Positions 1,255 to 20,802 of a DNA stretch of 54,855 bases are shown one piece after another. The notes under the pieces are model-generated. The model made no database searches. It was not told the origin of the DNA and saw only the letters and a program-made list of their open reading frames with translations. Each line of letters starts with the position of its first letter. Position 1 is the first letter of the stretch. Both the position numbers and the translations under genes were made by a program. The DNA is taken from positions 1-54,855 of IMG/VR virus record IMGVR_UViG_3300002144_000245. One strand, given 5' to 3'. Source of the stretch: a virus.

Positions 1255-2886
1255 TTATCCCAAAGTGTTCAAATGACCTACATATACTTTACCATAGAAT
1301 TCACCACGAACCATTTGTTTAGCGTAACGAGTCATTACACCTTTTCTTGGTTGGAAATTCTTAGGGTCGTATACAAGAGGAGTCATAATTAATGGAATAT
1401 ATGGAGCATAAACAGCACCAGTTTCCAAGAATTGAGAACCTTTGAAACCTAACAAGATAACATTTTCAGTCATGTAAGGATTCTTGTAAACTTGATAACG
1501 ATTAGCGAATGAACCTACTTGAGAAACACCCATAGCAAAATTCATTTCATTACCCGTACCAGAAGCAGCAAACCCTGGGATAGACTCAAGGATTGTAGCA
1601 ACGTCAGGAGAAACTACCATAAAGTTAGCTCCACCTCTCATGGTTTTAGCATGAATTTGGTTAGATACTCTCTGAAGAACAGTACCAATAGTTTGGAACC
1701 ATTGTTGTTGAGTGTAACGAGCAGCTGTTCCACCATCGGCGAAATTAGAACCACCCCATTCGTAACCTACTTTAGCAGACCAATGACCAACAGTCAAAGC
1801 GTTCTCCATCAACATATCTAAGATTTCGAGGTCGATTTCTTGAGAGATGTATTCAGATAACATTGAAGTCAATTCAGCTTCAGCATCGATTGAATGATAA
1901 GCGTTCAAATCTTGAGCAAATTCAGGAGTCCATTGTGCTTTCAACTTACGAGTCTTAGCAACGATTGGCACAGAGCGTAACTCTACGTTCAATTCAGGAA
2001 TACCTAAATCACTTTCAGGGTTAGCAGCGAAACCAGCACCAGTTTGTTCGAAGTCACCACGAGAGATGTCAGCTGGTTGTTTTTGGTATTTAACAACACA
2101 GTTTGCTACAGTAAAGGCATCACCGATAGAACCGGCAACTTCAACAACGAAACGTACATTAGTACCAACGATAGAAGTGTAAGCTGGGTAATATTGAACA
2201 ATACCTGAACCAGAGATATCAAAGGCTCTAACGCCTTCAGCGTCATAACCTGTCAATGAAGCAACAGCAACAGATACAGTACCAAGGTTAGTATCAGCAG
2301 TAGCAGCCGATGCAGAGAATGCAGCGTCGTATCCAATTACAGCAAGACCACTAGCAACGCCAGTAGCAACAGATGCAGATGCGTGGTTAGTTAATGTTGC
2401 AGTAGTTGCGTCATTCATAGAATAACCGAAACGACCAGCACCATAAAGACCTTCAGAAGCATTACCTGCAGTTTCGGTGATACCGAATACTGAGTCAGCT
2501 TGAGAGTTTTTACCAGCACCAGTTTCAAATCCTGGCTGAGCAGTACCATACTTGAAATCCAAGTAAAATACAAGGCCAGAAGGCAAGTTCATTGGTTGTA
2601 CAGAAACGAATTCTTTAGCAGCGATTTCGCTGAAGATACGTCTTACTAATGGAAGAGCGACACCAGACCACTCTTCAGAGTTTGCAGAAGTACCTGTGCT
2701 TGAAGCTTCAGATACTAATTGCTTTGCTTGGTTTTCCAACAAAGTAGCGATTGTACTTCTTTCGAAGTCGTTAGCGATACCTTCTAAAAGACCTGTCTTT
2801 TCCCACTTAGAGACTAATCCCTTAGATTCTTCAGACATCTTTTTGTTGAAACCAGCAGATTCATTTAATAAAGATTTTGTATTCAT
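1255..2886 (-). CDS. Major capsid protein (T4 gp23 family)
   Basis: 543 residues, close to the 521 of T4 gp23. Segments that match gp23 as I know it include FVSVQPMNLPSGLVF (93-107), KAQWTPEFAQDLNA (316-329) and YDPKNFQP near the C-terminus. The N-terminal prodomain (1-60) begins with MNTKSLLNE and contains LLEG and LLENQ, as in gp23; the likely maturation cut is LVSE60/A61, near T4's cut at 65/66. Residues about 120-290 form a Ser/Ala/Thr-rich stretch much longer than the equivalent core region and may be an inserted surface domain. AAGGA lies 9 nt before the start. It follows the scaffold gene by 31 nt and ends at a strong terminator. Confidence 0.97.
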   Translation of the reverse strand: MNTKSLLNESAGFNKKMSEESKGLVSKWEKTGLLEGIANDFERSTIATLLENQAKQLVSEASSTGTSANSEEWSGVALPLVRRIFSEIAAKEFVSVQPMNLPSGLVFYLDFKYGTAQPGFETGAGKNSQADSVFGITETAGNASEGLYGAGRFGYSMNDATTATLTNHASASVATGVASGLAVIGYDAAFSASAATADTNLGTVSVAVASLTGYDAEGVRAFDISGSGIVQYYPAYTSIVGTNVRFVVEVAGSIGDAFTVANCVVKYQKQPADISRGDFEQTGAGFAANPESDLGIPELNVELRSVPIVAKTRKLKAQWTPEFAQDLNAYHSIDAEAELTSMLSEYISQEIDLEILDMLMENALTVGHWSAKVGYEWGGSNFADGGTAARYTQQQWFQTIGTVLQRVSNQIHAKTMRGGANFMVVSPDVATILESIPGFAASGTGNEMNFAMGVSQVGSFANRYQVYKNPYMTENVILLGFKGSQFLETGAVYAPYIPLIMTPLVYDPKNFQPRKGVMTRYAKQMVRGEFYGKVYVGHLNTLG

Positions 2887-2917: not shown

Positions 2918-3898
2918 TTAAATTAGACCAGCTAACTTCTTAAATCTATTAGCAACTTCACTACCTTCAGAAAGAATTTCTCTCTTTGGTGCTGAAGACT
3001 TCATAGGCTTAGAAGCAAGTGATTCTTTAACAACTGTTTTTGGTTTACGAGCAACATTCAAGTTTTCACCTAATGTAGCGTAAACTAATTTTACTTCTCT
3101 TAATGAAGCAGTTCTATCGAAATTTTCGATAACCTTCATTTTTTGTGACTCATTCAAATCAAAAGTTCTGAATAACTTGTTAGTGTAAAGAAGTTTAGCG
3201 TTTAACAAGTTAACTTCGTTGATAGTTGTTCTTAAAGACTGAATAGTCTTGTAAGCTTCTTCCAACTGAGCAGCTGTTTCATCTTCTTCTTCGGTTTCTT
3301 CTTCAGTTACTTCTTCTTCGTCAGCCATTTCTTTTAAGGTACGGATGATTTCGTTGATGTCTAATTCTTCGTCAGAATCCATGTCTTCTTCGTCAATCGC
3401 TTCTTCAGCGTCTTCTTCGTAAGTCATTTCGTCTTCGTCTTCTTCAGTAACAACATCTTCTTCATCATCACCAAGAGCAGCTTCAAGTTCAGCAATTACG
3501 GATTCAAGGTCTAAGTCATCTTCTTCAGTTGACTCTTCTTCTTCACCAGTAACATCGTACTCTTCACCTTCTTCGTCAGAATCCATTTCCATGTATTCTT
3601 CTTCTGCCGTTTCACCAGCCTCATGCTCTTCAGAGCCTTCACCTTCTTCTTCAGTCACGTCATCTTCTGTACCATGCTCATCTTCAGACATTTCGTCTTC
3701 AGCAGTAGGTACTTCGATATCCATCTCATCTTCTTCCTCAAGTTCCTCGTCTTCGAGTTCTTCAGCAATCTTATGAGATAACATAGATTGAAGTTTTGGA
3801 GTGAATGCCTCTTCGAGAGCCATCTTAGCGTTTGCGAGTGCAGTTTCCTTTACGGCTTTAGCGTCAGCAATTGCTTCTTTTAACAAATCTGATTTCAT
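2918..3898 (-). CDS. Acidic prohead core scaffold protein (T4 gp22-like)
   Basis: 326 residues. The middle (about 45-210) is almost entirely Glu, Asp, Ser and Met, the N-terminus is a charged helix and the C-terminal third is helical and basic. Position directly before the capsid gene and this composition match gp22, the scaffold that fills the prohead and is destroyed by the prohead protease. A fitting cleavage site, EILSE/GSEV, lies 15 residues from the C-terminus; the tail ANRFKKLAGL resembles the C-terminal end of gp22-type scaffolds. AGGAG (3906-3910) stands 7 nt before the ATG. Assignment rests on position and composition more than on sequence motifs. Confidence 0.82.
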   Translation of the reverse strand: MKSDLLKEAIADAKAVKETALANAKMALEEAFTPKLQSMLSHKIAEELEDEELEEEDEMDIEVPTAEDEMSEDEHGTEDDVTEEEGEGSEEHEAGETAEEEYMEMDSDEEGEEYDVTGEEEESTEEDDLDLESVIAELEAALGDDEEDVVTEEDEDEMTYEEDAEEAIDEEDMDSDEELDINEIIRTLKEMADEEEVTEEETEEEDETAAQLEEAYKTIQSLRTTINEVNLLNAKLLYTNKLFRTFDLNESQKMKVIENFDRTASLREVKLVYATLGENLNVARKPKTVVKESLASKPMKSSAPKREILSEGSEVANRFKKLAGLI

Positions 3899-4429: not shown

Positions 4430-4792
4430 TTATTTTACAGTTAATATATTTGCTTCAGTAACTACTGATTCATACACACCCTCTGATAAATCATCTAATC
4501 CGTTTTTGAAATCACCAAGTAATTTACCAAATTGCTTTTGCTTATCAGTTGGTAGTCTTTTAATCTTAGGTATATTCTTTTTGATGAACATAGAAAAGTC
4601 TGCACTTATTTCTTGCATTCTATCCACGTCACCCGTGCCTTCGGACACAGAGTCTGCACTATCAATGTCATCATCAGATGAATCATCGGCCATAGTCTCG
4701 GCCATAGTTTGTTTCATCTTAATCAATTTAGAAGATGGTAATTCCCCACCACCTAAAAATGTTTCGTTAAGTAAGCTTTTTAGATTTATCAT
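4430..4792 (-). CDS. Small acidic head-core protein with capsid-targeting-like ends
   Basis: 120 residues of no family I recognise. The first ten residues, MINLKSLLNE, followed by Thr, resemble the N-terminal leaders of the neighbouring 330-residue protein and the capsid protein, and the C-terminus carries YESVVTE/ANILTVK, a second site of the putative protease type. The middle is very acidic (DDSSDDDIDSADS) and the rest helical and basic. The gene overlaps the upstream gene by 4 nt (ATGA), so the two are translationally coupled. Position between protease and scaffold suggests a minor prohead core protein comparable in role to T4 gp67/gp68 or internal proteins; this is inference. Confidence 0.55.
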   Translation of the reverse strand: MINLKSLLNETFLGGGELPSSKLIKMKQTMAETMADDSSDDDIDSADSVSEGTGDVDRMQEISADFSMFIKKNIPKIKRLPTDKQKQFGKLLGDFKNGLDDLSEGVYESVVTEANILTVK

Positions 4793-5781
4793 TTTATTTT
4801 TCCCTTTGCGATATCTCGTTGAAGTTGGTCAGCTGCATTTTGTACATCTACGACAGCTTGGTTGATTGGTACATTACGATATTTACCAAGTTTTTTAACT
4901 GCCATAAGTACGATTCTTAATTCTTCTGATGATGGACTTTCATTAATAACTGCCTCACCAAACATCTCATCATCAAAATAAAGAGCACTCATGTAATCTT
5001 TTAGTTTTGCGTTTTTAAAATCACCTTTAAACTTTTCTAATGCTCTACGAGCTTTTAAAGCCGATTTAGCTGGAACAACAAAGAATCCATTCTTTTCACC
5101 ACCCTTTTTCGTTTGTGCTGAAACTACCTGAGCCTTCATTCCAGTTCCAGCAGAATTACCTTTTGGGTCAATTAAAGTCCACTTATCACCTTCGTTTAAA
5201 ATGTTGGTTAGTTTCATTGAGGTTTTTTCAGTAACTACTGATTCTTTAGCGAAGTCTTTTGCGTTCTCTTTGTCTTCTTTATCAACGGATGTTACTTTGT
5301 ACTCTTTACCATCAACGTCAAATGAATCATCGCCAGCAGCGATAGCTTTAGCTCTATTAGCTCCAAACTCGTTACCTTCTTTGATTTCGTAATATTTACC
5401 AAGAACTTCACCAATTTCATCATAAGTTGACTCTAATCGTTGTTGAAGAGTGTTTACTTCTTTGATTGTATTAGAGAATATTTTGAATGACTCATTCATA
5501 GACTTCATGTGTCTACCAACAGTTACTTTATCAAACCAATCGCCGGTTTCTTTAATGGTAACTTTATTAGCGTTCTCTACGATACCTTTAATAGATTCGT
5601 GGATTTCGGACAAATTACCTTTATGAGAAATCATCTCACCAAATTGTCTATAAGCAGAAACTGCTTCAACAAACGCTCTTTTTTCTTCGTTTGTCATTCC
5701 TTTTTCTTTCTCTTCACCAACATTCATTCGTCTATAATCTAAATGTTGAGATTCGTTAAGTAGGTCTTTTAGTTTTTTCAT
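4789..5781 (-). CDS. Modular prohead core / internal head protein with protease-type linkers
   Basis: 330 residues. It begins MKKLKDLLNE/S, a ten-residue leader like the T4 capsid-targeting sequence, and has further sites of the same kind at SVVTE185/K, NILNE197/G and AVINE281/S. Modules between them: a coiled-coil-like helical region (about 11-130); GNEFGANRAKAIAAGDD (137-152), part of a small unit also present in the protein at 13862-15166; a Lys-rich domain (198-281); and a helical C-terminus. GGAG stands about 7 nt before the ATG, which overlaps the stop of the protease gene by 4 nt. I infer that it is packaged in the prohead and cut by the neighbouring protease. Confidence 0.6.
   Translation of the reverse strand: MKKLKDLLNESQHLDYRRMNVGEEKEKGMTNEEKRAFVEAVSAYRQFGEMISHKGNLSEIHESIKGIVENANKVTIKETGDWFDKVTVGRHMKSMNESFKIFSNTIKEVNTLQQRLESTYDEIGEVLGKYYEIKEGNEFGANRAKAIAAGDDSFDVDGKEYKVTSVDKEDKENAKDFAKESVVTEKTSMKLTNILNEGDKWTLIDPKGNSAGTGMKAQVVSAQTKKGGEKNGFFVVPAKSALKARRALEKFKGDFKNAKLKDYMSALYFDDEMFGEAVINESPSSEELRIVLMAVKKLGKYRNVPINQAVVDVQNAADQLQRDIAKGKIK
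5213..5244 (-). repeat. Direct repeat copy A (linker-coding, 32 bp)
   Basis: A 32-bp sequence beginning TTCATTGAGG and ending CTACTGATTC (plus strand) recurs without mismatch at 13884-13915 in another gene. It encodes ESVVTEKTSM, a putative cleavage linker followed by the start of a leader-like segment. Confidence 0.85.
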
Positions 5782-6422
5782 AGTTTTACTCCAAAGTCAC
5801 ATTCACAATATCCACCAACTTCACACATGATATCTCTCATAAGTGTATTAGCTTTTTTGTATTTATAAGTATTTGATTTTTTGGTAACACCTTCTTTGAT
5901 GATACCTTCATTTTTTGGAGATAGGAAAGCGCCTTGAGTTGATGGGTTTGATACAAAATCCCAACAGATTAAATCAAAATCACTTTCTACGGCAACTGTT
6001 TCTTCTCCTATTTGTTTAACCGAGCCCATACCTCTTGATGATATACCAACAGTACACCCAGCTTTAATAATTTCTTGTAAGATTGTACCGGCCGGCGTAT
6101 TTAAAATTTCAACTGTACCAATAACATCATCACCCTTCCATTCAACAGAACGAACGATGTGAGATGTATTCTTTAATTCTACAATTGCTGATTCAGGATG
6201 GTCAAGTTCACCGTATGCACGATTTTCTTTAATCTCCCTACCTATATATTTCTTAACTTCTCGTTCAAGAATATTACGAGGGTACACTCTACCATTTTGG
6301 TTTTTAGCATCGGCTCTTTGTAGTACACCACTAACTAAAAATCGACCATGCTTTTCAGCTGACTCTTTTAACATAGTGGGTGTTACGTTGAACACTATAG
6401 TATCTACGAGTAATTGTTTCAT
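5778..6422 (-). CDS. Prohead maturation protease (T4 gp21 family)
   Basis: 214 residues from the ATG chosen here. The longer reading frame opens 12 nt earlier with TTG, but that stretch contains GGAGAA, the ribosome-binding site for this ATG. The herpes assemblin-like serine protease fold is indicated by HGRFLVSGVLQRAD (25-38), GELDHPES (71-78, catalytic His75), VGISSRGMG (125-133, nucleophile Ser128 or Ser129) and FDLICWDFVSNP (149-160). The enzyme digests the scaffold and trims capsid proteins after the head assembles, cutting after Glu. The stop of the upstream 46-codon gene overlaps the start (TAATG), and the next gene overlaps its stop by 4 nt. Confidence 0.93.
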   Translation of the reverse strand: MKQLLVDTIVFNVTPTMLKESAEKHGRFLVSGVLQRADAKNQNGRVYPRNILEREVKKYIGREIKENRAYGELDHPESAIVELKNTSHIVRSVEWKGDDVIGTVEILNTPAGTILQEIIKAGCTVGISSRGMGSVKQIGEETVAVESDFDLICWDFVSNPSTQGAFLSPKNEGIIKEGVTKKSNTYKYKKANTLMRDIMCEVGGYCECDFGVKL

Positions 6423-6562
6423 TAATTCTCCCAAACTTTCTTTTTACGATATAAGTCAAAGAAGACTCTAGCTAATTCTCTACGAATCAACATACGAATT
6501 TCCTCAAGGTCTTTGACATCGAGTTCTTCGTTAATTTGTTTCTTATTACAACCACATCCCAT
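6422..6562 (-). CDS. 46-residue conserved-position head-region protein
   Basis: A short gene that fills the gap before the protease gene exactly: its ATG is 1 nt after the stop of the upstream gene and its TAA shares one base with the protease ATG. The product begins MGCGCNKKQINEEL, so it has two close cysteines, and continues as a strongly charged helix (EEIRMLIRRELARVFFDLY) ending in a basic tail. AGGT lies just before the start. I do not recognise a family. Size and place recall the small core proteins found between portal and protease in T4-like phages, but no sequence evidence ties it to them. Its reality rests on perfect packing and clean codon use. Confidence 0.6.
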   Translation of the reverse strand: MGCGCNKKQINEELDVKDLEEIRMLIRRELARVFFDLYRKKKVWEN

Positions 6563-12528: not shown

Positions 12529-13860
12529 TTACCATTTACGACACGACCAATAATTGGCCTTCCATCTTGGGCCTGGTTCATCACAATTCATTCTTGCCCT
12601 GAATGATTTACGGGCAGCTGGATTGTCTTTTTTAATGACCATTCCCTTTTGTCCAAAGTTTACTTTAACAACATTACCTTTGTCGTTGTTTACATATACT
12701 TTGAATTTTTTAACATCACCTTGCATTATCTTACCAAGTTTTACGGCTCTACCTTGGTATTCAGCTTCGTTAAGTGATGGTGTGTATTCCTTCATAAATT
12801 GAACAAATTCTTTTACATCTTGATAGTTCTCTACATCATACTCTTCAATGGAGTCATCACCACCATCTGCATTATTTACAATATTTAAATAATCCTCAGC
12901 TTTGGTAATCAATGATTGAACCCATGGTTCTAAGTTTGAACGGCTGTTTAATTTATCTAATAATTGTTGAGCGTGTTCGACTGAACTTTGTAGTTGGTCA
13001 ACGGCCATATCTGCATCTGATTCAGATGATTCTTTCTTCAATCTACTTTTCTCAGCTCTACCTCTATTTGTAGATTCGGCTTCGAATCCAACTATCTTCC
13101 CACTTTTATGAGATGCATCTTTACCATCACCATTACCATAAGTACCTTTATCTCTATTGTACTTATTTAGCTCAGCTCTGTATTTCTTTGATTTATCTGA
13201 TGATTGAAATTTCTTATACTCATCTTTGTAATCTCGTTTAGTTTCTTCAGTTACCGATTCTAATAGTTTATGTAATTCTTTAACTAATGGTGATGCTGCT
13301 GTAAATAACTTAGGATTTTTTTTAGAGCTATCATTCTTTAGGTTTTTAATTAAATTTTGAATGGAATCTATTACATCTAATATTTCAGAATTTTTAACGC
13401 TACCTTCGTTTACTGATTCATTAAATATACTATACTTTTTTATACCTAATTTACTTACCATTTTTTCAATAGTATTGTAATCACTATCTGGATGATTTCC
13501 ATTTCCAAGTATAATTTCTATCTCTCCTTTAGTTACAGGATGAGAACTAACGTTTACTTTATACTTTTTATTTATTTTTTGAACGTAGTTTCGTAATACA
13601 TCTATTTTATCTTCGGTAACTACTGATTCATTCTTTGGAACACAATTAGGGACTTCTTTGCCATCCTTCATTTTCATTCCAACCATCTCATATCCATCCC
13701 AACATGGGTTATCAGTAGCTTCTTCATTTGTAAATGATTTAACATATGGATTCGATACTACTTGACCTAACTCAGGAACAAAGCCATACTTTTCTTCCAT
13801 AAATGTTTTTACATTATGGTATTCTTCTCTGATGAGTTGTTTAAGTTGCGATTCGTTCAT
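12529..13860 (-). CDS. Mosaic head protein (polyprotein-like), WSCRKW C-terminal module
   Basis: 443 residues made of small modules separated by Glu-ending linkers: VVTE83/D, SVNE152/G, SVTE205/E and SLNE365/A. Modules: a helical leader plus a Cys motif NPCWDGYEMVGMKMKDGK (51-68) ending PNC; a small alpha/beta unit (84-150); a helical unit (153-205); a basic unit with GNGDGKDASHKSGKIVGFEA (242-261); a helical unit with EPWVQSLITKAEDYL (311-325); and a basic C-terminal domain with KKFKVYV, SFRARMNCDEPGPRW and YWSCRKW. I recall the last, Cys-motif and WVQ modules as separate units in other aquatic phages, without known function. I infer that it is packaged and processed in the head. Confidence 0.6.
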   Translation of the reverse strand: MNESQLKQLIREEYHNVKTFMEEKYGFVPELGQVVSNPYVKSFTNEEATDNPCWDGYEMVGMKMKDGKEVPNCVPKNESVVTEDKIDVLRNYVQKINKKYKVNVSSHPVTKGEIEIILGNGNHPDSDYNTIEKMVSKLGIKKYSIFNESVNEGSVKNSEILDVIDSIQNLIKNLKNDSSKKNPKLFTAASPLVKELHKLLESVTEETKRDYKDEYKKFQSSDKSKKYRAELNKYNRDKGTYGNGDGKDASHKSGKIVGFEAESTNRGRAEKSRLKKESSESDADMAVDQLQSSVEHAQQLLDKLNSRSNLEPWVQSLITKAEDYLNIVNNADGGDDSIEEYDVENYQDVKEFVQFMKEYTPSLNEAEYQGRAVKLGKIMQGDVKKFKVYVNNDKGNVVKVNFGQKGMVIKKDNPAARKSFRARMNCDEPGPRWKANYWSCRKW

Positions 13861-13861
13861 A

Positions 13862-15166
13862 TTATACTTTATGTCGTGTTGGCTTCATTGAGGTTTTTTC
13901 AGTAACTACTGATTCGCTAGTTAATCTTTTTTTGTATTTTTTAGCCATCTTCATCGCTACGTTTACTATACTTTTAAAATCTTTAGCTTCTTCCATTGCG
14001 ATTTGGCCAGCGTCATAACTTTCAATACTAACAAAGTACCCTTTGTCATCACGACGACCAACATACATCATCATCTCTTCACCACCGTCAAATAGGAAAT
14101 CACTACTACCACCATGATATCTAGCATCACCTACTTCAGAGTCCACACCTACACCTGTTGCTCTTTCTAAAGATTTTCTAACAAGTTCCTGCTCTTTATC
14201 TGATAACATTGGTGTTGCTCTCTCATTTAACGTAGAAGAAAGTTTCATTGAATTTTTCTCTTTAATTGACTCCTTAGCGAAGTCTTTTACGTTCTCTTTG
14301 TCTTCTTTGTTAACGGATTCGTTCTTCATAAGTTTGTATGCCATATGTCCCATTGCTACAATACCACTCTTTACAAACTTATCTTTATTAGATTGTTGTT
14401 TAAGTGCATCATATACTTGAACCATTAGAGATGCTGATTGCATATCTACTCTTACCTTCTTATTTGATTTAGTATCAACTACTAAAGCGTTTTGTTTATC
14501 TTTTACAATTTTTCTTAATTGAGTGATAACTTCAGGTTCAGCAGCTGCTTCTTTTATTGATTCAGTATGTAAACTTTTGAATGTAGATTGTAACCACTTC
14601 ATAAGGTCTTTGTTTTTATAATCAAAGTCAGGATGTTCTTTTCTGAACTCTTTCATGAAATCAAGAAATGACCCTGCGTTTTGAATCATTATATCTATGT
14701 TTTTCATTACACCTTCAGTTGTAAGTTTATTAGTCACTTTAATTCCCTCTTCAAGTTTGTGCACAGGATATTTTTTTCCATTAAATTCAAATTCATCCAA
14801 ACCTTCTTTTCTTGCGTTATAAAGTGCGCCTGTAAATGCATTACCCTCAGTTAAACCTTGTTCTTGGTTTTGTGTATCAGCATATTCTTGAGCCTGGTCT
14901 TTAGTAGCAAAACTCTTTACTCTAACTTCACCTTCCCACACAGTCCATGGTGTGAATGGGTTAGATTGTTTATCAAACTTCACAACATAGTTGTCAGTTG
15001 GGTCTGCTGTGTGGTCTTCATTTACAAGGTTCACAGGCACTAATGCAGTTCCGCTATTTGTTAACTTCATAACATAGTGAACTCCATTTATTACTGTTTT
15101 GTAATCTTTGGGAGTTTTATTCCACTCACCCTTTGTAATACTATGTGTAATTTTAAACTTAGCCAT
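13862..15166 (-). CDS. Mosaic head protein (polyprotein-like) with GNAF and LRKIVKDKQ modules
   Basis: 434 residues. Putative processing sites: GLTE107/G, LTTE151/G, SIKE206/A, TLNE315/R and VVTE423/K. The first 107 residues form a beta-rich domain. Next comes GNAFTGALYNARKEGLDEF (108-126), a short module whose relative occurs in the core protein at 4789-5781. A helical unit (152-206) precedes an alpha/beta unit with ITQLRKIVKDKQNALVVDTK (214-233), then a unit starting at about 316 with SSDFLFDGGEEMMMYVGRRDD. The stretch DKENVKDFAKESIKEKNSM repeats almost unchanged in the 4789-5781 protein. AAGGAG stands 6 nt before the ATG. Its stop is next to the start of the 443-residue protein. Confidence 0.6.
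   Translation of the reverse strand: MAKFKITHSITKGEWNKTPKDYKTVINGVHYVMKLTNSGTALVPVNLVNEDHTADPTDNYVVKFDKQSNPFTPWTVWEGEVRVKSFATKDQAQEYADTQNQEQGLTEGNAFTGALYNARKEGLDEFEFNGKKYPVHKLEEGIKVTNKLTTEGVMKNIDIMIQNAGSFLDFMKEFRKEHPDFDYKNKDLMKWLQSTFKSLHTESIKEAAAEPEVITQLRKIVKDKQNALVVDTKSNKKVRVDMQSASLMVQVYDALKQQSNKDKFVKSGIVAMGHMAYKLMKNESVNKEDKENVKDFAKESIKEKNSMKLSSTLNERATPMLSDKEQELVRKSLERATGVGVDSEVGDARYHGGSSDFLFDGGEEMMMYVGRRDDKGYFVSIESYDAGQIAMEEAKDFKSIVNVAMKMAKKYKKRLTSESVVTEKTSMKPTRHKV
13884..13915 (-). repeat. Direct repeat copy B (linker-coding, 32 bp)
   Basis: Identical to 5213-5244, about 8.7 kb away in a different gene. Here it encodes the last linker (ESVVTEKTSM) before a 6-residue basic C-terminus, as if the module that should follow had been lost. 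Confidence 0.85.
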
Positions 15167-15176
15167 TAGTTACTCC

Positions 15177-17330
15177 TTAATTAATATAAGCATTTAATTC
15201 GTAATTACCGCTATCCATACCATATACTTGGAATGATAATGATTTTTTTTGTGGTTTACCTGCTTTCGAAAGACCTATAGTGAACGAGTTTGTTTTACCA
15301 ATACTTGGTCTTGAACGAGAATATTTACCACCCATAGCAACTTGACTATTCCAATCATCCATATCCACTTCAAATCCACGTTTTTCAACCATTTCCTTTG
15401 CAGTATCTGCGGCTGAAGTGAATGACTTATGGTATACTTGATATTGAGCTTCGTTTACTGATTTGTTGGTTGATTCCGTTTGTATTTCATGTGCAGGTAC
15501 TTCTAGTGAATAATATTGACCGATATCTACAATGTAAAATGGAGAACCTGGTGTTTTACCATCAAAACGAACAATTTTACCCGATTTACCACCACGAAGT
15601 TTTACTTTTGTTCCGGGTTTTAATATAGGAGTTGATGCTTCGTTTACTGATTCATTCTTTATCTTATTATAAAGTGCTTCAACTTTGGGTAATGTTTTAG
15701 TTATTACAGAAATATAATTTAAAACATCTTTATTTAAATCATACGATGGTTTAAATGGTAAAATATTACCGATTGTTCTTCCTATTACAATTCTATCATT
15801 ACCTTCTGAATCCATTACATTAAATGGTAAGTTAGGTTTACCATCCCACATTGGCGTTGCATAGATAAGTAAATCAATACCTTTTTTTTCAAATTCAAAA
15901 GTACCAGACCTACTATCTACATGCAGTTTCCAACCTTTGATATCTTTTCCGTTTAATACTTTTTCAGTTGCTTTTTGTAATTTATCTGCGTACTCGTCAT
16001 CTTTTGAAGATTCGTTTACTGATTCATCTACTTTATATTTGTAGATTACATCACTTCTATCTCGCAATGTAGTCGTGCCATGTTGTAAATCATAGTTTGC
16101 GTTAGCAGATGTTGCTTTAGCAAACTTACCATTCTTTAAGTAGAATGTACCAATACGAGAATTGTTATCATCAGTTACATAAAATACTGCGTTTTTCTTT
16201 TTCTTTGATAATGTAATAATATCAGATAGGTTCTTAGCTTTTATAAACTCACCATATCCTTCGTTAACTACTGATTCACTCATACTTAATATTGCTTTTT
16301 TCTTTTTAAGCATTAGTTTAAGGAACATATCTACTAACTTACCATTCGCATCATCAGTCATACGGTGGGGTCTACCAACGAAATCTTGACCGATACCATC
16401 CATCTTACCTGAACGTTCAAATTTAATCGTTCCGTTTGGGGATTTTATTGCAAAGTCACCCATACCTAAATGTACTAGTTCTGAATTTGGTAATACACCT
16501 TTACTATAGTTTACAAAGTTACTATCTACTATAGTTTGATTTCCAACTCGTTCGTAGTGACCTACATCCTTACCTTCGTTTACTGATTCTTTGAATAATC
16601 TCATACCAACGTTTTCAACTAAGTCTTCTACTTTTTGTCCAAGTGGTCTACCAAGTGTCATCGAGATGTAATATCCAAGTGCATCAACAATTACTTTCCC
16701 ATCCCACTTACAAATAGATGCAATGTCAGCCCCTAATTCATAATGGTACATATTTTCAAGGTCTTTCTTAGCCATTGGGTCACCCTCATACTTTGCTTTA
16801 GGAAATAATTTTGAAACTCTCTTTGCTTCGCTATGGAAGTTAGCGTCACCTAAAGCGCCCATCAAAATGTGCATTATAGCCCATTGGTGATTAGCCCCAC
16901 CTTTTTTTAAGTCTTTAAGGTGCTTGTCTAAAAGAGCTTTAACTTTTTTGTTTTCAGCAGGCCCTTCGGATAGAATATTTTCTACGATATTTGATAAATT
17001 CATGGATGTCTCCGTTTTTTCTAATAAGTTTAATAATGAGTCTTCTTTAATTTTAAATGAGTATCCAGCACCATGGTAAGTACTGTCAATTTCAAAATCT
17101 AATCCTGTTTTTGTTTTTAGTCGGACAATTGTTAGAGTTCTGAAATCTTCATCAGCATATCGCTCATTACCAAGTTGTGTTTTGATATGAGTGATTGTAT
17201 CTAAATCTTTAGATGTTTTTGGCAAAAGAATAATATTACCATTTTTAATGGATGTGTTAAATTCTACTTTACCATTTCGGTAGTCAAATTTAACTTTACC
17301 TTCTGACAATATTGATGATTTTAATTTCAT
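15177..17330 (-). CDS. Seven-module polyprotein-like head protein
   Basis: 717 residues. The leader MKLKSSILSE10/G is followed by six further sites of one pattern: NILSE122/G, SVNE252/G, VVNE357/G, SVNE440/S, SVNE564/A and SVNE627/A. These cut the chain into units of 112, 130, 105, 83, 124, 63 and 90 residues, each looking like a small independent domain: beta-rich (11-122), all-helical (123-252), alpha/beta, beta, alpha/beta, an SH3/KOW-like barrel (ILKPGTKVKLRGGKSGKIV, 569-587) and a C-terminal alpha/beta unit (YGMDSGNYELNAYIN). No enzyme motif is clear. GGAGA lies 7 nt before the ATG, which overlaps the upstream gene by 4 nt. I infer packaging and processing by the prohead protease. Confidence 0.65.
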   Translation of the reverse strand: MKLKSSILSEGKVKFDYRNGKVEFNTSIKNGNIILLPKTSKDLDTITHIKTQLGNERYADEDFRTLTIVRLKTKTGLDFEIDSTYHGAGYSFKIKEDSLLNLLEKTETSMNLSNIVENILSEGPAENKKVKALLDKHLKDLKKGGANHQWAIMHILMGALGDANFHSEAKRVSKLFPKAKYEGDPMAKKDLENMYHYELGADIASICKWDGKVIVDALGYYISMTLGRPLGQKVEDLVENVGMRLFKESVNEGKDVGHYERVGNQTIVDSNFVNYSKGVLPNSELVHLGMGDFAIKSPNGTIKFERSGKMDGIGQDFVGRPHRMTDDANGKLVDMFLKLMLKKKKAILSMSESVVNEGYGEFIKAKNLSDIITLSKKKKNAVFYVTDDNNSRIGTFYLKNGKFAKATSANANYDLQHGTTTLRDRSDVIYKYKVDESVNESSKDDEYADKLQKATEKVLNGKDIKGWKLHVDSRSGTFEFEKKGIDLLIYATPMWDGKPNLPFNVMDSEGNDRIVIGRTIGNILPFKPSYDLNKDVLNYISVITKTLPKVEALYNKIKNESVNEASTPILKPGTKVKLRGGKSGKIVRFDGKTPGSPFYIVDIGQYYSLEVPAHEIQTESTNKSVNEAQYQVYHKSFTSAADTAKEMVEKRGFEVDMDDWNSQVAMGGKYSRSRPSIGKTNSFTIGLSKAGKPQKKSLSFQVYGMDSGNYELNAYIN

Positions 17331-17908
17331 TTTTGTTTCTCCAGCTTCTCAATGAAGTTTTCTTTAAAAGTACAAAACTCGTTTTCTATTTTGGTTTCAA
17401 ACTCTTCCCATGACACACCATCCCATTCCTCAACCGAACCATCTTCGTTGATGAACTTGGCTTTTAGTGCCAGCTTTAGAGTTTCTTTTTCAAGTTCAGC
17501 TTGTTTTAACCAAGCTTTACCATTTTCTAACATTTTGCTTCGTTCATACTCTTGATACTTACCCTCAATTTTTAATTGGTGTTCCATATCAATTACACAA
17601 TCAAAACACACACCATGAACAGCTTTCATTTTCAGGTCGTTTCGTTTCGGTGTTGTACAAGTACAAACTTCTTTTTGGCATTTTGGAAATGTATTGAGTT
17701 CGTTTCTCAATTCTGAAAGTTTACCAAGTTTAACCTTGTATCCTTTCTTTTGTTCCCAAAGTTGCCCCTCATCATCAGTCCATCGGTCTCCGACTTCTTT
17801 TTTGATAAATTGCGTTACCTCATCAAATCCAATAGTAGTTTTGGTTTGAGTTCGGTGTGTTCCAGCAATCATTTCTTTGATTGCTTTTACGTTGTTTAAT
17901 TTTGCCAT
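17327..17908 (-). CDS. Zinc-finger-like conserved phage protein
   Basis: 193 residues. The opening NVKAIKEMIAGTHRTQTKTT is a conserved-looking motif that I associate with T4-like aquatic phages. A four- to six-cysteine cluster, CQKEVCTCTT (96-105) and GVCFDC (129-134 region), probably binds zinc. The N-terminal half has WEQKKGYKVKLGKLSELR and the C-terminal half is a charged helix. It lacks the SVNE-type linkers of its neighbours, so it is probably not part of the packaged set, although it is translationally coupled to the 717-residue protein. No Shine-Dalgarno sequence is seen; ATACTTATA occurs at 17934-17942. Function unknown. Confidence 0.6.
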   Translation of the reverse strand: MAKLNNVKAIKEMIAGTHRTQTKTTIGFDEVTQFIKKEVGDRWTDDEGQLWEQKKGYKVKLGKLSELRNELNTFPKCQKEVCTCTTPKRNDLKMKAVHGVCFDCVIDMEHQLKIEGKYQEYERSKMLENGKAWLKQAELEKETLKLALKAKFINEDGSVEEWDGVSWEEFETKIENEFCTFKENFIEKLEKQK

Positions 17909-17949
17909 AACTTATTTGTATACGTTGTCAATATATAAGTATTATATTA

Positions 17950-20802
17950 TTAGTAGAAAAGACCAAGTATTTGATTCAATGGTGCAAACGTGCCTGTTAG
18001 TTTATATGTCGCACCCTTATATGTAAATACAATACCTTCGTTTGGTACAATTTTATCTTTACCACCAATTGAATTTAATCGTTGTAACTCTAACTTTAAT
18101 TTTTCAATTTTCTTTACATCACCACTCTTCTTAACATCTTTGATTGTTTGGTCTAATCTCTTTTTCATATCACGAAGTGCTGAATCGGGGTTTACTGTTA
18201 ATGCGGATGACATGAATGAAAGAACTTCAGCACCAACACCTAAGAAGATATCTTCAAATGGTCGAATGTTATCCTTTGCAATTTTAGCGTGGTCATTCTT
18301 ATCTACACTCTGAGCCCATGATAGTGTTTTGTCATCAGAAATAGATTTACTATCTAATCGAGTTGATTTATCATAAAATGCCCATCGTTTAACCAATCCC
18401 ATTTTGGTTTTGTTATCTAATGTAGATGGTGAATTCTTGTCTACGTATGATTCCCACCATCGTTGGTGGTATTCAGCAACACCATCTGAATCTTTTAATT
18501 TAAACTCACTCTGAAGCTTAGATAGTTGTGATGTAAATTTACTTTGTTTAGAAGATAATTCTTCGGACTTTGGTAACTGAACCACGGGCGGACCTTGAAT
18601 AGTATACTTTGACTGAACATCAGCGTTAACTTGTTTAATCATCCCAGCAAGTATTTTAGCGTCTGATGTGTCAGCTCCTATAGCAACACCCTTCTCATCA
18701 TATTCCATTGTTCCATGAAAAACAAGTAGCGGCTGACCGTAAGGAACTACGTTCACAGATGTCGGCCAAATTACTTCAAGGTTCATAAATTTCTTACCCT
18801 GTTTGAATATTTTATCTCGTTGTGACGATGATAATCCGCTGATGGCTGATGTCAAATCTTTCATAGCATAATTGTAAGCATCAGTTAACCCACCCCTACC
18901 TTGGAACTTTGAAGCAATACCACTAATGTCCAATGCCTTCTCACCAGAGTTAGCAAGGTGTCCTTTGTTACGAGCTGCTATAAGACCTTTTCCATCTTTC
19001 CATGAAATAGCAAGAGCTTGTCCATCGGTTTTTTCTCGTGTGAATTCTAATTTACCTTGAAGAGCATTTGATATGATTATTTTCAAATCACCAAATGTTA
19101 AATTCATTTCAGTATCAAATGGATGATGCATATGACCATACGCTCCTCCTTCAGTTAATATATTTTCTGCTAGGGATTTATCTTTTGGTTTTGAGATGTA
19201 TTTTTTAGCCATTTCAATAAATGATGGGGTTATGTGTTCTATCACAAAACTTAATGCAGTAGTTAACTGTTCTTCTTCTATTGTATCATTACCCTGCTCT
19301 CCCATCGAAGGCCACTCTCCAGTTGGGAATTTATCTCCCATTAATGATTTGGCTAATATGGCTCTAGTCAAATGTAATCCTTCATGAGCTAATTGTTCTA
19401 TTACTGCTGTTTGGGCCCCTGCTTTTTTAGCTTTTCCTGCTAATCGTCTACCATTGGTCCAAAAATATATATCTTGTCCATCATTCATAGTGTTAACTAA
19501 TCCGTAGGCATATGCATCGTCTGGGGTTTCATTATATTCTTGAGCATCTTTTAAAGATAATCCTGTGTATTTTGCTACATTATCCCCCAACTCAAATACA
19601 CCTTGACTATTAGGAGACATCGCTAATGTAATATCTTCTGAGATTTTAGTTCCATCGAAAAGTTCAAATGATATATTTATTTTCTTTACTTGTACTTCGG
19701 TTTTAACGTCATTCAATACACCTTCAGTATGGAGTTGTTGCGTTTTTAATTCTTTTTGTTTTTGTTTTTCGGTTGGGATTTGAGCGGTCAGGTTTTGTAT
19801 ATCCTTTGGTTCAGCGAAGTTTACAAACTCCATACCCAATCTAAGTGCTACTCGTTTGATATGGTCTGCCCATTTCTTATATCCAGCTCTACCTGTGATG
19901 TCTTTACCATAACGAACAGTCTGGCCATCTCTCGTGTCTCCTGTTGGGAAAAATGATACGGAGTATTTGTCAGGCATTGGTCTGCCATCATGAGCAAATA
20001 CCGTGTCAACCTCTGGCATTAAGTATGATACAATTTCATATCCCAATTTACCAACTGATTTTTCCATTTCAGATTTAAATGTTTTCATGTTACCATAAAA
20101 CGCAGCAGGTCCATCATCAACAATACCCTTTCCACTTATGGGTATCGTGCTTGATTCTGATATAATTTTAGTGATATCAATTGACTGAAAGAAGGATTCC
20201 ATTACGGATTCCACTTTAGCCATCTTTGAGGAAATTAAATCAAAAATCTTTTGGTTAAATTTTGGATATACTGATTTAAAGAATTTAATTCGTTTTTCTT
20301 CGTCTGAAGTAGACATACCAGCACGTACTTCTGTACCCGATATACCATTACCTTGTGATGGGGATGTGTAAACGTATCCACCATCTTTTACAGCAATACT
20401 TACGTCACCCTTATATGGTTGAAAATAATTACCACCCAATCGACCACCATCTTTTTCGCCAACTACAGTTATAAACGCAGTCGTGTTTTCATCAAACTTA
20501 CCAAGAATTTCTTTTGGAGCATATGGATTTTTTACTTGAACAATTTTGTTTTTTGGAATACCAAACATCGTGCTCATAATGTCAACCTTTTCCTTAAAAC
20601 GGAATGGTGATTTTGGTAACTCTACTTTATCGGAGGTTCCAATGTATACATTATCCTTACCAAACTTCTTTACCAAGTGTGCGTATGTTGCGTAGTGACC
20701 GGAATGGAATGGGTGAAACCTTCCCACATACGTTACGACTGTTTTTTTAATGTCTTCGGTAAGGATTGATTCCATCACCCATTTGTTTATTAATTGTCCC
20801 AT
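17950..20802 (-). CDS. Four-domain protein: nucleotidyltransferase, unknown, HExxH zincin-like, ligase-like
   Basis: 950 residues. Sites of the putative prohead-protease type separate four domains: ILTE16/D, IISE216/S, LHTE360/G and ILTE551/G. Domain 1 (17-216) is a cytidylyltransferase-like nucleotidyltransferase with GRFHPFHSGH (27-36, HxGH motif) and GISGTEVR (153-160). Domain 2 (217-360) is unrecognised. Domain 3 (361-551) has AHEGLH (472-477), an HExxH zinc-protease signature, with EEE at 509-511 as possible third ligand. Domain 4 (552-950) resembles the nucleotidyltransferase core of ATP-dependent ligases: EKTDGQA (590-596, KxDG) and FMNLEVIW (672-679). Substrates are unknown. No Shine-Dalgarno sequence is present. 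ATG at codon 10 (MESILTE) is an alternative start. Confidence 0.7.
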   Translation of the reverse strand: MGQLINKWVMESILTEDIKKTVVTYVGRFHPFHSGHYATYAHLVKKFGKDNVYIGTSDKVELPKSPFRFKEKVDIMSTMFGIPKNKIVQVKNPYAPKEILGKFDENTTAFITVVGEKDGGRLGGNYFQPYKGDVSIAVKDGGYVYTSPSQGNGISGTEVRAGMSTSDEEKRIKFFKSVYPKFNQKIFDLISSKMAKVESVMESFFQSIDITKIISESSTIPISGKGIVDDGPAAFYGNMKTFKSEMEKSVGKLGYEIVSYLMPEVDTVFAHDGRPMPDKYSVSFFPTGDTRDGQTVRYGKDITGRAGYKKWADHIKRVALRLGMEFVNFAEPKDIQNLTAQIPTEKQKQKELKTQQLHTEGVLNDVKTEVQVKKINISFELFDGTKISEDITLAMSPNSQGVFELGDNVAKYTGLSLKDAQEYNETPDDAYAYGLVNTMNDGQDIYFWTNGRRLAGKAKKAGAQTAVIEQLAHEGLHLTRAILAKSLMGDKFPTGEWPSMGEQGNDTIEEEQLTTALSFVIEHITPSFIEMAKKYISKPKDKSLAENILTEGGAYGHMHHPFDTEMNLTFGDLKIIISNALQGKLEFTREKTDGQALAISWKDGKGLIAARNKGHLANSGEKALDISGIASKFQGRGGLTDAYNYAMKDLTSAISGLSSSQRDKIFKQGKKFMNLEVIWPTSVNVVPYGQPLLVFHGTMEYDEKGVAIGADTSDAKILAGMIKQVNADVQSKYTIQGPPVVQLPKSEELSSKQSKFTSQLSKLQSEFKLKDSDGVAEYHQRWWESYVDKNSPSTLDNKTKMGLVKRWAFYDKSTRLDSKSISDDKTLSWAQSVDKNDHAKIAKDNIRPFEDIFLGVGAEVLSFMSSALTVNPDSALRDMKKRLDQTIKDVKKSGDVKKIEKLKLELQRLNSIGGKDKIVPNEGIVFTYKGATYKLTGTFAPLNQILGLFY

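Follow-up and report, generated by a model that had tools for sequence, protein, structure and literature searches.

Candidate head-packaged polyproteins with prohead protease-type sites at unit borders in a T4-like phage

Head genes and candidate polyproteins of the window

The window, that is, the whole 54,855-base IMG/VR fragment analysed here, derives from a T4-like myovirus and encodes a prohead protease of the S77 family. Its head gene cluster contains genes for six candidate polyproteins of 717, 950, 443, 434, 330, and 120 residues, which are listed with their units and sites in Table 1. In the major capsid protein, the site at which maturation is presumed to occur kept its Glu in 12/12 homologues, and it provides an internal calibration of the cut motif. 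In homologues of the protease, a conserved NEG(V/I)INES-like stretch (e.g., NEGVINES) near the C terminus resembles the cut sites and may be a self-cleavage point.

Table 1. Features of the window; arrows mark presumed cuts and L numbers denote loci fetched from viral contigs.
Feature	Position	Strand	Remarks
Major capsid protein	1255..2886	-	leader MNTKSLLNE↓; presumed maturation site QLVSE60↓A
120-residue protein	4430..4792	-	leader MINLKSLLNE; sites E51, E104, E113
330-residue polyprotein	4789..5781	-	adjoins protease; leader MKKLKDLLNE↓; sites E197, E281
Prohead protease, Peptidase_S77 (T4 gp21 type)	5778..6434	-	PF03420, E 1.2e-31
443-residue polyprotein	12529..13860	-	CWDGY segment near residues 53-107
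Unit 366-443 (YQGR unit) of 443-residue protein	12532-12765	-	C-terminal; pI 10.2
434-residue polyprotein	13862..15166	-	sites E107, E151, E202, E418
717-residue polyprotein	15177..17330	-	leader 1-10 and seven units; seven Glu sites
Leader of 717-residue protein	17301..17330	-	MKLKSSILSE↓; resembles T4 capsid targeting sequence
Unit 11-122	within 15177..17330	-	bordered by E10 and E122
Unit 123-252	16575..16964	-	standalone gene in L105 and L035, reading MKLTELLNE↓DANMNKKV; AF2 pLDDT about 90 between sites
Unit 253-357	16260..16574	-	relatives 92-94% identical, behind a different segment ending MKLTDILKE↓
Unit 358-440	16011..16259	-	end of most homologues coincides with E440 site; seven distinct contexts upstream
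Unit 441-564	15639..16010	-	no relatives among fetched loci
Unit 565-627	15450..15638	-	no relatives among fetched loci
Unit 628-717	15180..15449	-	standalone MIKLKSLLQE↓SDYQVYHK in L035 and L087; also within other phage polyproteins (L012-L032); AF2 pLDDT about 90
DNA linker GAATCAGTAAACGAA encoding ESVNE	16575..16589	-	further identical copies: 13405-13419, 15639-15653, 16011-16025; copy with one mismatch: 15450-15464
950-residue polyprotein	17950..20802	-	leader 1-16; units 17-216, 217-360, 361-551, 552-950

The motif [LIV]x?[SNTH]E before G, A, or S was scored against an expectation from residue shuffling. The six candidate proteins gave 28 matches vs. 3.1 expected, with a maximum of 10 over 1000 shuffles, and the whole head set gave 38 matches vs. 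6.2. All the other genes together held seven (12.0 expected), none of them in the 1816- and 757-residue non-head proteins. Restriction of the motif to head genes is visible in the sequence itself. The motif over-predicts, since E474 sits in an HExxH motif and E922 in a ligase-type EGIVF motif; these matches lie inside domains and are probably not cut.

All seven sites of the 717-residue protein that the original prediction had named were present, namely E10 and E122 (both ILSE↓G), E252 (SVNE↓G), E357 (SVVNE↓G), E440 (SVNE↓S), and E564 and E627 (both SVNE↓A), and they delimit the predicted units of 63–130 residues. Likewise recovered were the four sites named in the 950-residue protein (ILTE16↓D, IISE216↓S, LHTE360↓G, and ILTE551↓G). 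Further sites had been proposed in the 443-, 434-, and 330-residue proteins; these exist, but follow a less regular pattern in the 434- and 443-residue proteins than in the 717-residue protein. T4 gp21 cuts after L/I-x-E and removes the propeptides of internal proteins (PMC9026906). The sites of the window have the same L/I-x-E form, and the SVNE sites, with V at P3, extend the T4 rule. A leader of 7–19 residues ending in a gp21-type site was found in the 717-, 330-, 120-, and 950-residue proteins, and was not evident at the N termini of the 443- and 434-residue proteins. For comparison, the T4 capsid targeting sequence (CTS) has 10–19 residues and ends in a gp21 site (PMC9026906). Cutting the window proteins at the sites would leave about 23 units of at least 40 residues, in agreement with the earlier estimate of perhaps 20 small proteins, and the pI exceeds 8 in about 13 of the 23 vs. 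a median of 5.5 for other proteins.

Domains and predicted folds of the two largest polyproteins

The 717-residue protein could not be assigned to any Pfam or PHROG family, and no match to it was present in the phages collection. One weak NCBIfam match was taken as chance. An AF2 model was confident for residues 11–106, 124–240, and 630–717 with low-confidence breaks at the sites, breaks which were partly imposed as alignment rows of this protein were partly cut at unit borders. For the 950-residue protein, AF2 reached a pLDDT of 47. As this second model was poor and Foldseek against the PDB returned no match below E 0.1 for either protein, fold-based assignment of unit function was dropped.

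Sequence matches and motifs point to putative functions for three units of the 950-residue protein. Unit 17–216 matches cytidyltransferase/NMN-adenylyltransferase (NMNAT) families. Unit 361–551 carries HEGLH, an HExxH sequence for which there was no Pfam match, while unit 552–950 has KxDG, RN, NxE, EGIVF, and KLTG motifs and appears to be of a type resembling covalent nucleotidyltransferases. A profile search of the last unit against PDB sequences gave nothing credible; matches to interleukin-22 (E 0.2 or worse) were taken as noise. Two homologues differ in unit content. One (L041) lacks unit 361–551, with the gap falling exactly between sites, and that of Microcystis phage Mel-JY01 (L114) lacks the stretch matching residues 217–551.

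Related proteins were also seen at two other loci. A 1312-residue relative (L115, 3390-7325) has an NMNAT-like start, several HExxH-bearing segments, and a C-terminal match to 5'-3' deoxyribonucleotidase (phrog_2643), with LNE/LTE-type sites between all these parts. The 907-residue protein of Flavobacterium phage immuto (L113, 2466-5186) combines an NMNAT-like domain and two HExxH motifs with an N terminus resembling polymerase-beta-type nucleotidyltransferases; its sites are LAE↓G or VMAE↓G and not VNE↓G. In the window, the gene of the 950-residue protein is adjoined by a minus-strand gene at 17327-17908 for a 193-residue protein with paired cysteines (CTCTTPKRNDLKMKAVHGVCFDC). Immuto (L113, 5771-6346) and Mel-JY01 (L114, 12156-12794) each have a similar gene, without a leader, close to that of the NMNAT protein.

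Unit borders, shuffling, and the ESVNE linker in relatives

The window proteins were cut at their sites and the units searched against relatives fetched from viral contigs. The units recurred in many other proteins, usually starting right after a Glu site, and stood either behind a different neighbour or in short genes with a T4-like targeting leader. Among 141 upstream contexts, many of them interrelated, Glu occupied position -1 in 105, L, V, or I position -3 in 110, and G, A, or S position +1 in 116. Borders of local homology defined independently of the cuts lay within six residues of a strict site about 2.5 times as often as expected on both sides (left, 180 vs. 72; right, 207 vs. 82), with most such borders not at a strict site and some in acidic or shifted alignments. 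Swapping of units was also seen on a wider scale. When 103 proteins with at least two linkers were cut at the sites, we obtained 201 unit families in 98 arrangements, with a median segment of 83 residues; 83 families had two or more members and 42 had at least three different neighbours on a side. An earlier, smaller protein set had given 82 families and 44 arrangements.

Many of the junctions are conserved also as DNA. The window holds six matches to the linker GAATCAGTAAACGAA with up to two mismatches, compared with 0.14 expected, and the 15-base sequence is conserved, with sharp edges, at 42 junctions with dissimilar flanking sequences both upstream and downstream. At third codon positions of these junctions, V was encoded by GTA in 41/42, N by AAC in 36/42, and S by TCA in 32/42, vs. 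fractions of 0.59, 0.50, and 0.35, respectively, for control tripeptides in other genes; a codon comparison at orthologous junctions comprised three usable pairs. A scan of viral contigs with an 18-base form of the linker gave at least 152 exact matches, and all those listed read ESVNE in the frame of an ORF that had 80 codons or more. Since the linker DNA is kept across unrelated flanks and its matches are in frame, cassette swapping at the linker is suggested. Most simply, cassettes would be exchanged at the ESVNE linker or would spread together with it, although shared recent descent of the linker DNA may be an alternative source of its conservation. T4-like phages might assemble and exchange head-delivered protein cocktails by recombination at a short DNA linker that also encodes the cut site of the head protease, the recombination seam and the cleavage site then being one sequence; we make this proposal tentatively and at somewhat below even odds.

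The codon bias, the sharp edges, and the in-frame matches could also be read as signs that the ESVNE linkers serve first of all as DNA elements at which recombination or insertion of cassettes takes place, their likeness to protease sites being secondary. We regard this as highly improbable. Many junctions (ILTE, LLNE, LHTE) share the protein signature without common DNA, using other codons and residues, so that this signature extends more widely than the linker DNA. As explanations of the ESVNE linker itself, a DNA element and a protease site are compatible.

The context of one unit varied with the detection of the protease, which offers a natural control. The basic unit 366–443 of the 443-residue protein occurs in small Pelagibacter and Roseobacter phages, and in 6/6 examined phages without a detected S77 protease it was encoded as a bare unit preceded by M. 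In four S77 phages (C48C1, HTVC008M, Melnitz-3, and immuto 13-6C), the unit is preceded by a leader or by other domains whose last residue is Glu. Of 15 long contigs that bear the linker or are closely related to the window phage, 14 encode S77, the exception being a 67-kb fragment. The loci in which the YQGR unit forms its own gene without detected S77 are L117, L125–L127, L130, and L131; one of these genes is annotated as HVA1 family.

These observations bear on the possibility that the proteins are packaged polyvalent multidomain effectors which stay uncut, with flexible linkers that mimic the protease motif, so that processing would be confined to the N-terminal leader. Virion-packaged effectors of this kind are known (PMC5512222), and the linkers of the 717-residue protein are of low confidence in AF2. 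However, the linkers share the L/I/V-x-E↓G/A/S signature with the capsid protein and with leaders at gene starts, whereas a flexible linker alone needs neither Glu at -1 nor G, A, or S at +1. Moreover, a unit of these proteins is found also behind a site-bearing leader at a gene start, and leaderless in phages without S77. We therefore consider uncut effectors unlikely, and cleavage at the junctions the better reading.

Virion homologues, known systems, and the proposed role of the units

Two virion proteins of cyanophage S-CREM2 identified by mass spectrometry are related to units of the window (PMC10665884). The gp154 protein has a leader, MKNFSSFLTE↓A, and an NMNAT-like domain, while gp160 contains a CWxGY unit that we found to be 40% identical to residues 53–107 of the 443-residue protein. 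NMNAT-like proteins have been reported in further cyanophage virions (PMC9602691, PMC9146016), and possible carry-over was cautioned by the authors of PMC10665884 and PMC9602691. These virion proteins are distant homologues of two window units, and their presence could reflect such carry-over.

The core proteins of T4 receive several cuts and for the most part exit the head (PMC9026906), and the candidate genes of the window lie in the head cluster. Both facts would fit scaffold-like core proteins comparable to T4 gp22 and gp67, fragmented for head clearance and not retained as cargo. The units are nevertheless diverse and swapped between phages, confident folds are predicted for several, enzyme-like motifs occur in some, and homologues of two of them stay in cyanophage virions. 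In addition, the window has a separate acidic scaffold-like gene at 2918-3898. Fragmented scaffold is accordingly a very unlikely account of these proteins, and we return to cargo.

The closest known counterparts are the T4 internal proteins IPI–IPIII and Alt, which have a CTS and are cut by gp21. Common to both systems are an S77 protease, a short leader ending in L/I-x-E, a location in the head cluster, and diverse, often basic mature proteins. The propeptides removed by T4 gp21 are N-terminal and of 7–65 residues, and Alt is also processed C-terminally (PMC9026906, PMC5694885). T4 has one internal protein per gene, whereas the window phage has up to seven units per gene with a site at each border; because of these multiple units, we say that the window proteins would work like internal proteins and do not call them classical ones. 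Head ejection proteins of the giant phages phiKZ and SPN3US are similar in having a Glu-directed protease, several cuts per protein, and a large ejected load (PMC10052503, PMC5694885). The cuts given there are those of N-terminal propeptides and of the protease's own C-terminal one, and the passages covered do not describe released strings of units. Polyvalent proteins (Iyer et al., 2017; PMC5512222) and the P1 Dar proteins are likewise multidomain, virion-packaged, and thought to act early. They differ in being processed by embedded peptidases or packaged uncut; for a peptidase of that sort, the window proteins offered the HExxH sequence of unit 361–551 as the sole candidate. For polyvalent proteins, a gp21-type site at every border is not noted in the available portion of that paper. 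In the open-access papers searched, we found no account of units strung together with a site at every junction; judged from sequence, it is this arrangement within one gene that appears to be new relative to the T4 internal proteins and the polyvalent effectors.

We estimate the probability that the 717-, 950-, 443-, 434-, 330-, and 120-residue proteins are head-packaged cassette polyproteins cut by the S77 protease at about 0.8. The original prediction of head-packaged polyproteins is supported by homology that starts at Glu sites, by swapping and loss of units, by leaders linked to S77, and by the homologues of two units in virions. In the mechanism that we infer, leaders of T4 capsid-targeting type would take at least four of the polyproteins into the prohead core. 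There, during the maturation step in which the capsid protein is trimmed, the S77 protease would cleave [L/I/V]-x-E↓[G/A/S] junctions behind the Glu, freeing about 20 small, often basic proteins that would remain with the DNA and probably be ejected into the host. The units would behave as cassettes, gained, lost, and swapped at junctions, with the ESVNE linker nearly unchanged as DNA. One gene would probably yield a cocktail of small head-packed proteins delivered into the host.

If this is true, a single gene is the source of an entire set of injected proteins, and such sets could be read straight from metagenomes by their border motif, a limited sample having already given the unit families counted above. 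The outcome would be a catalogue of likely early-acting phage proteins, for anti-defence or host takeover, and the system would constitute a natural case of combinatorial protein delivery by phage heads.
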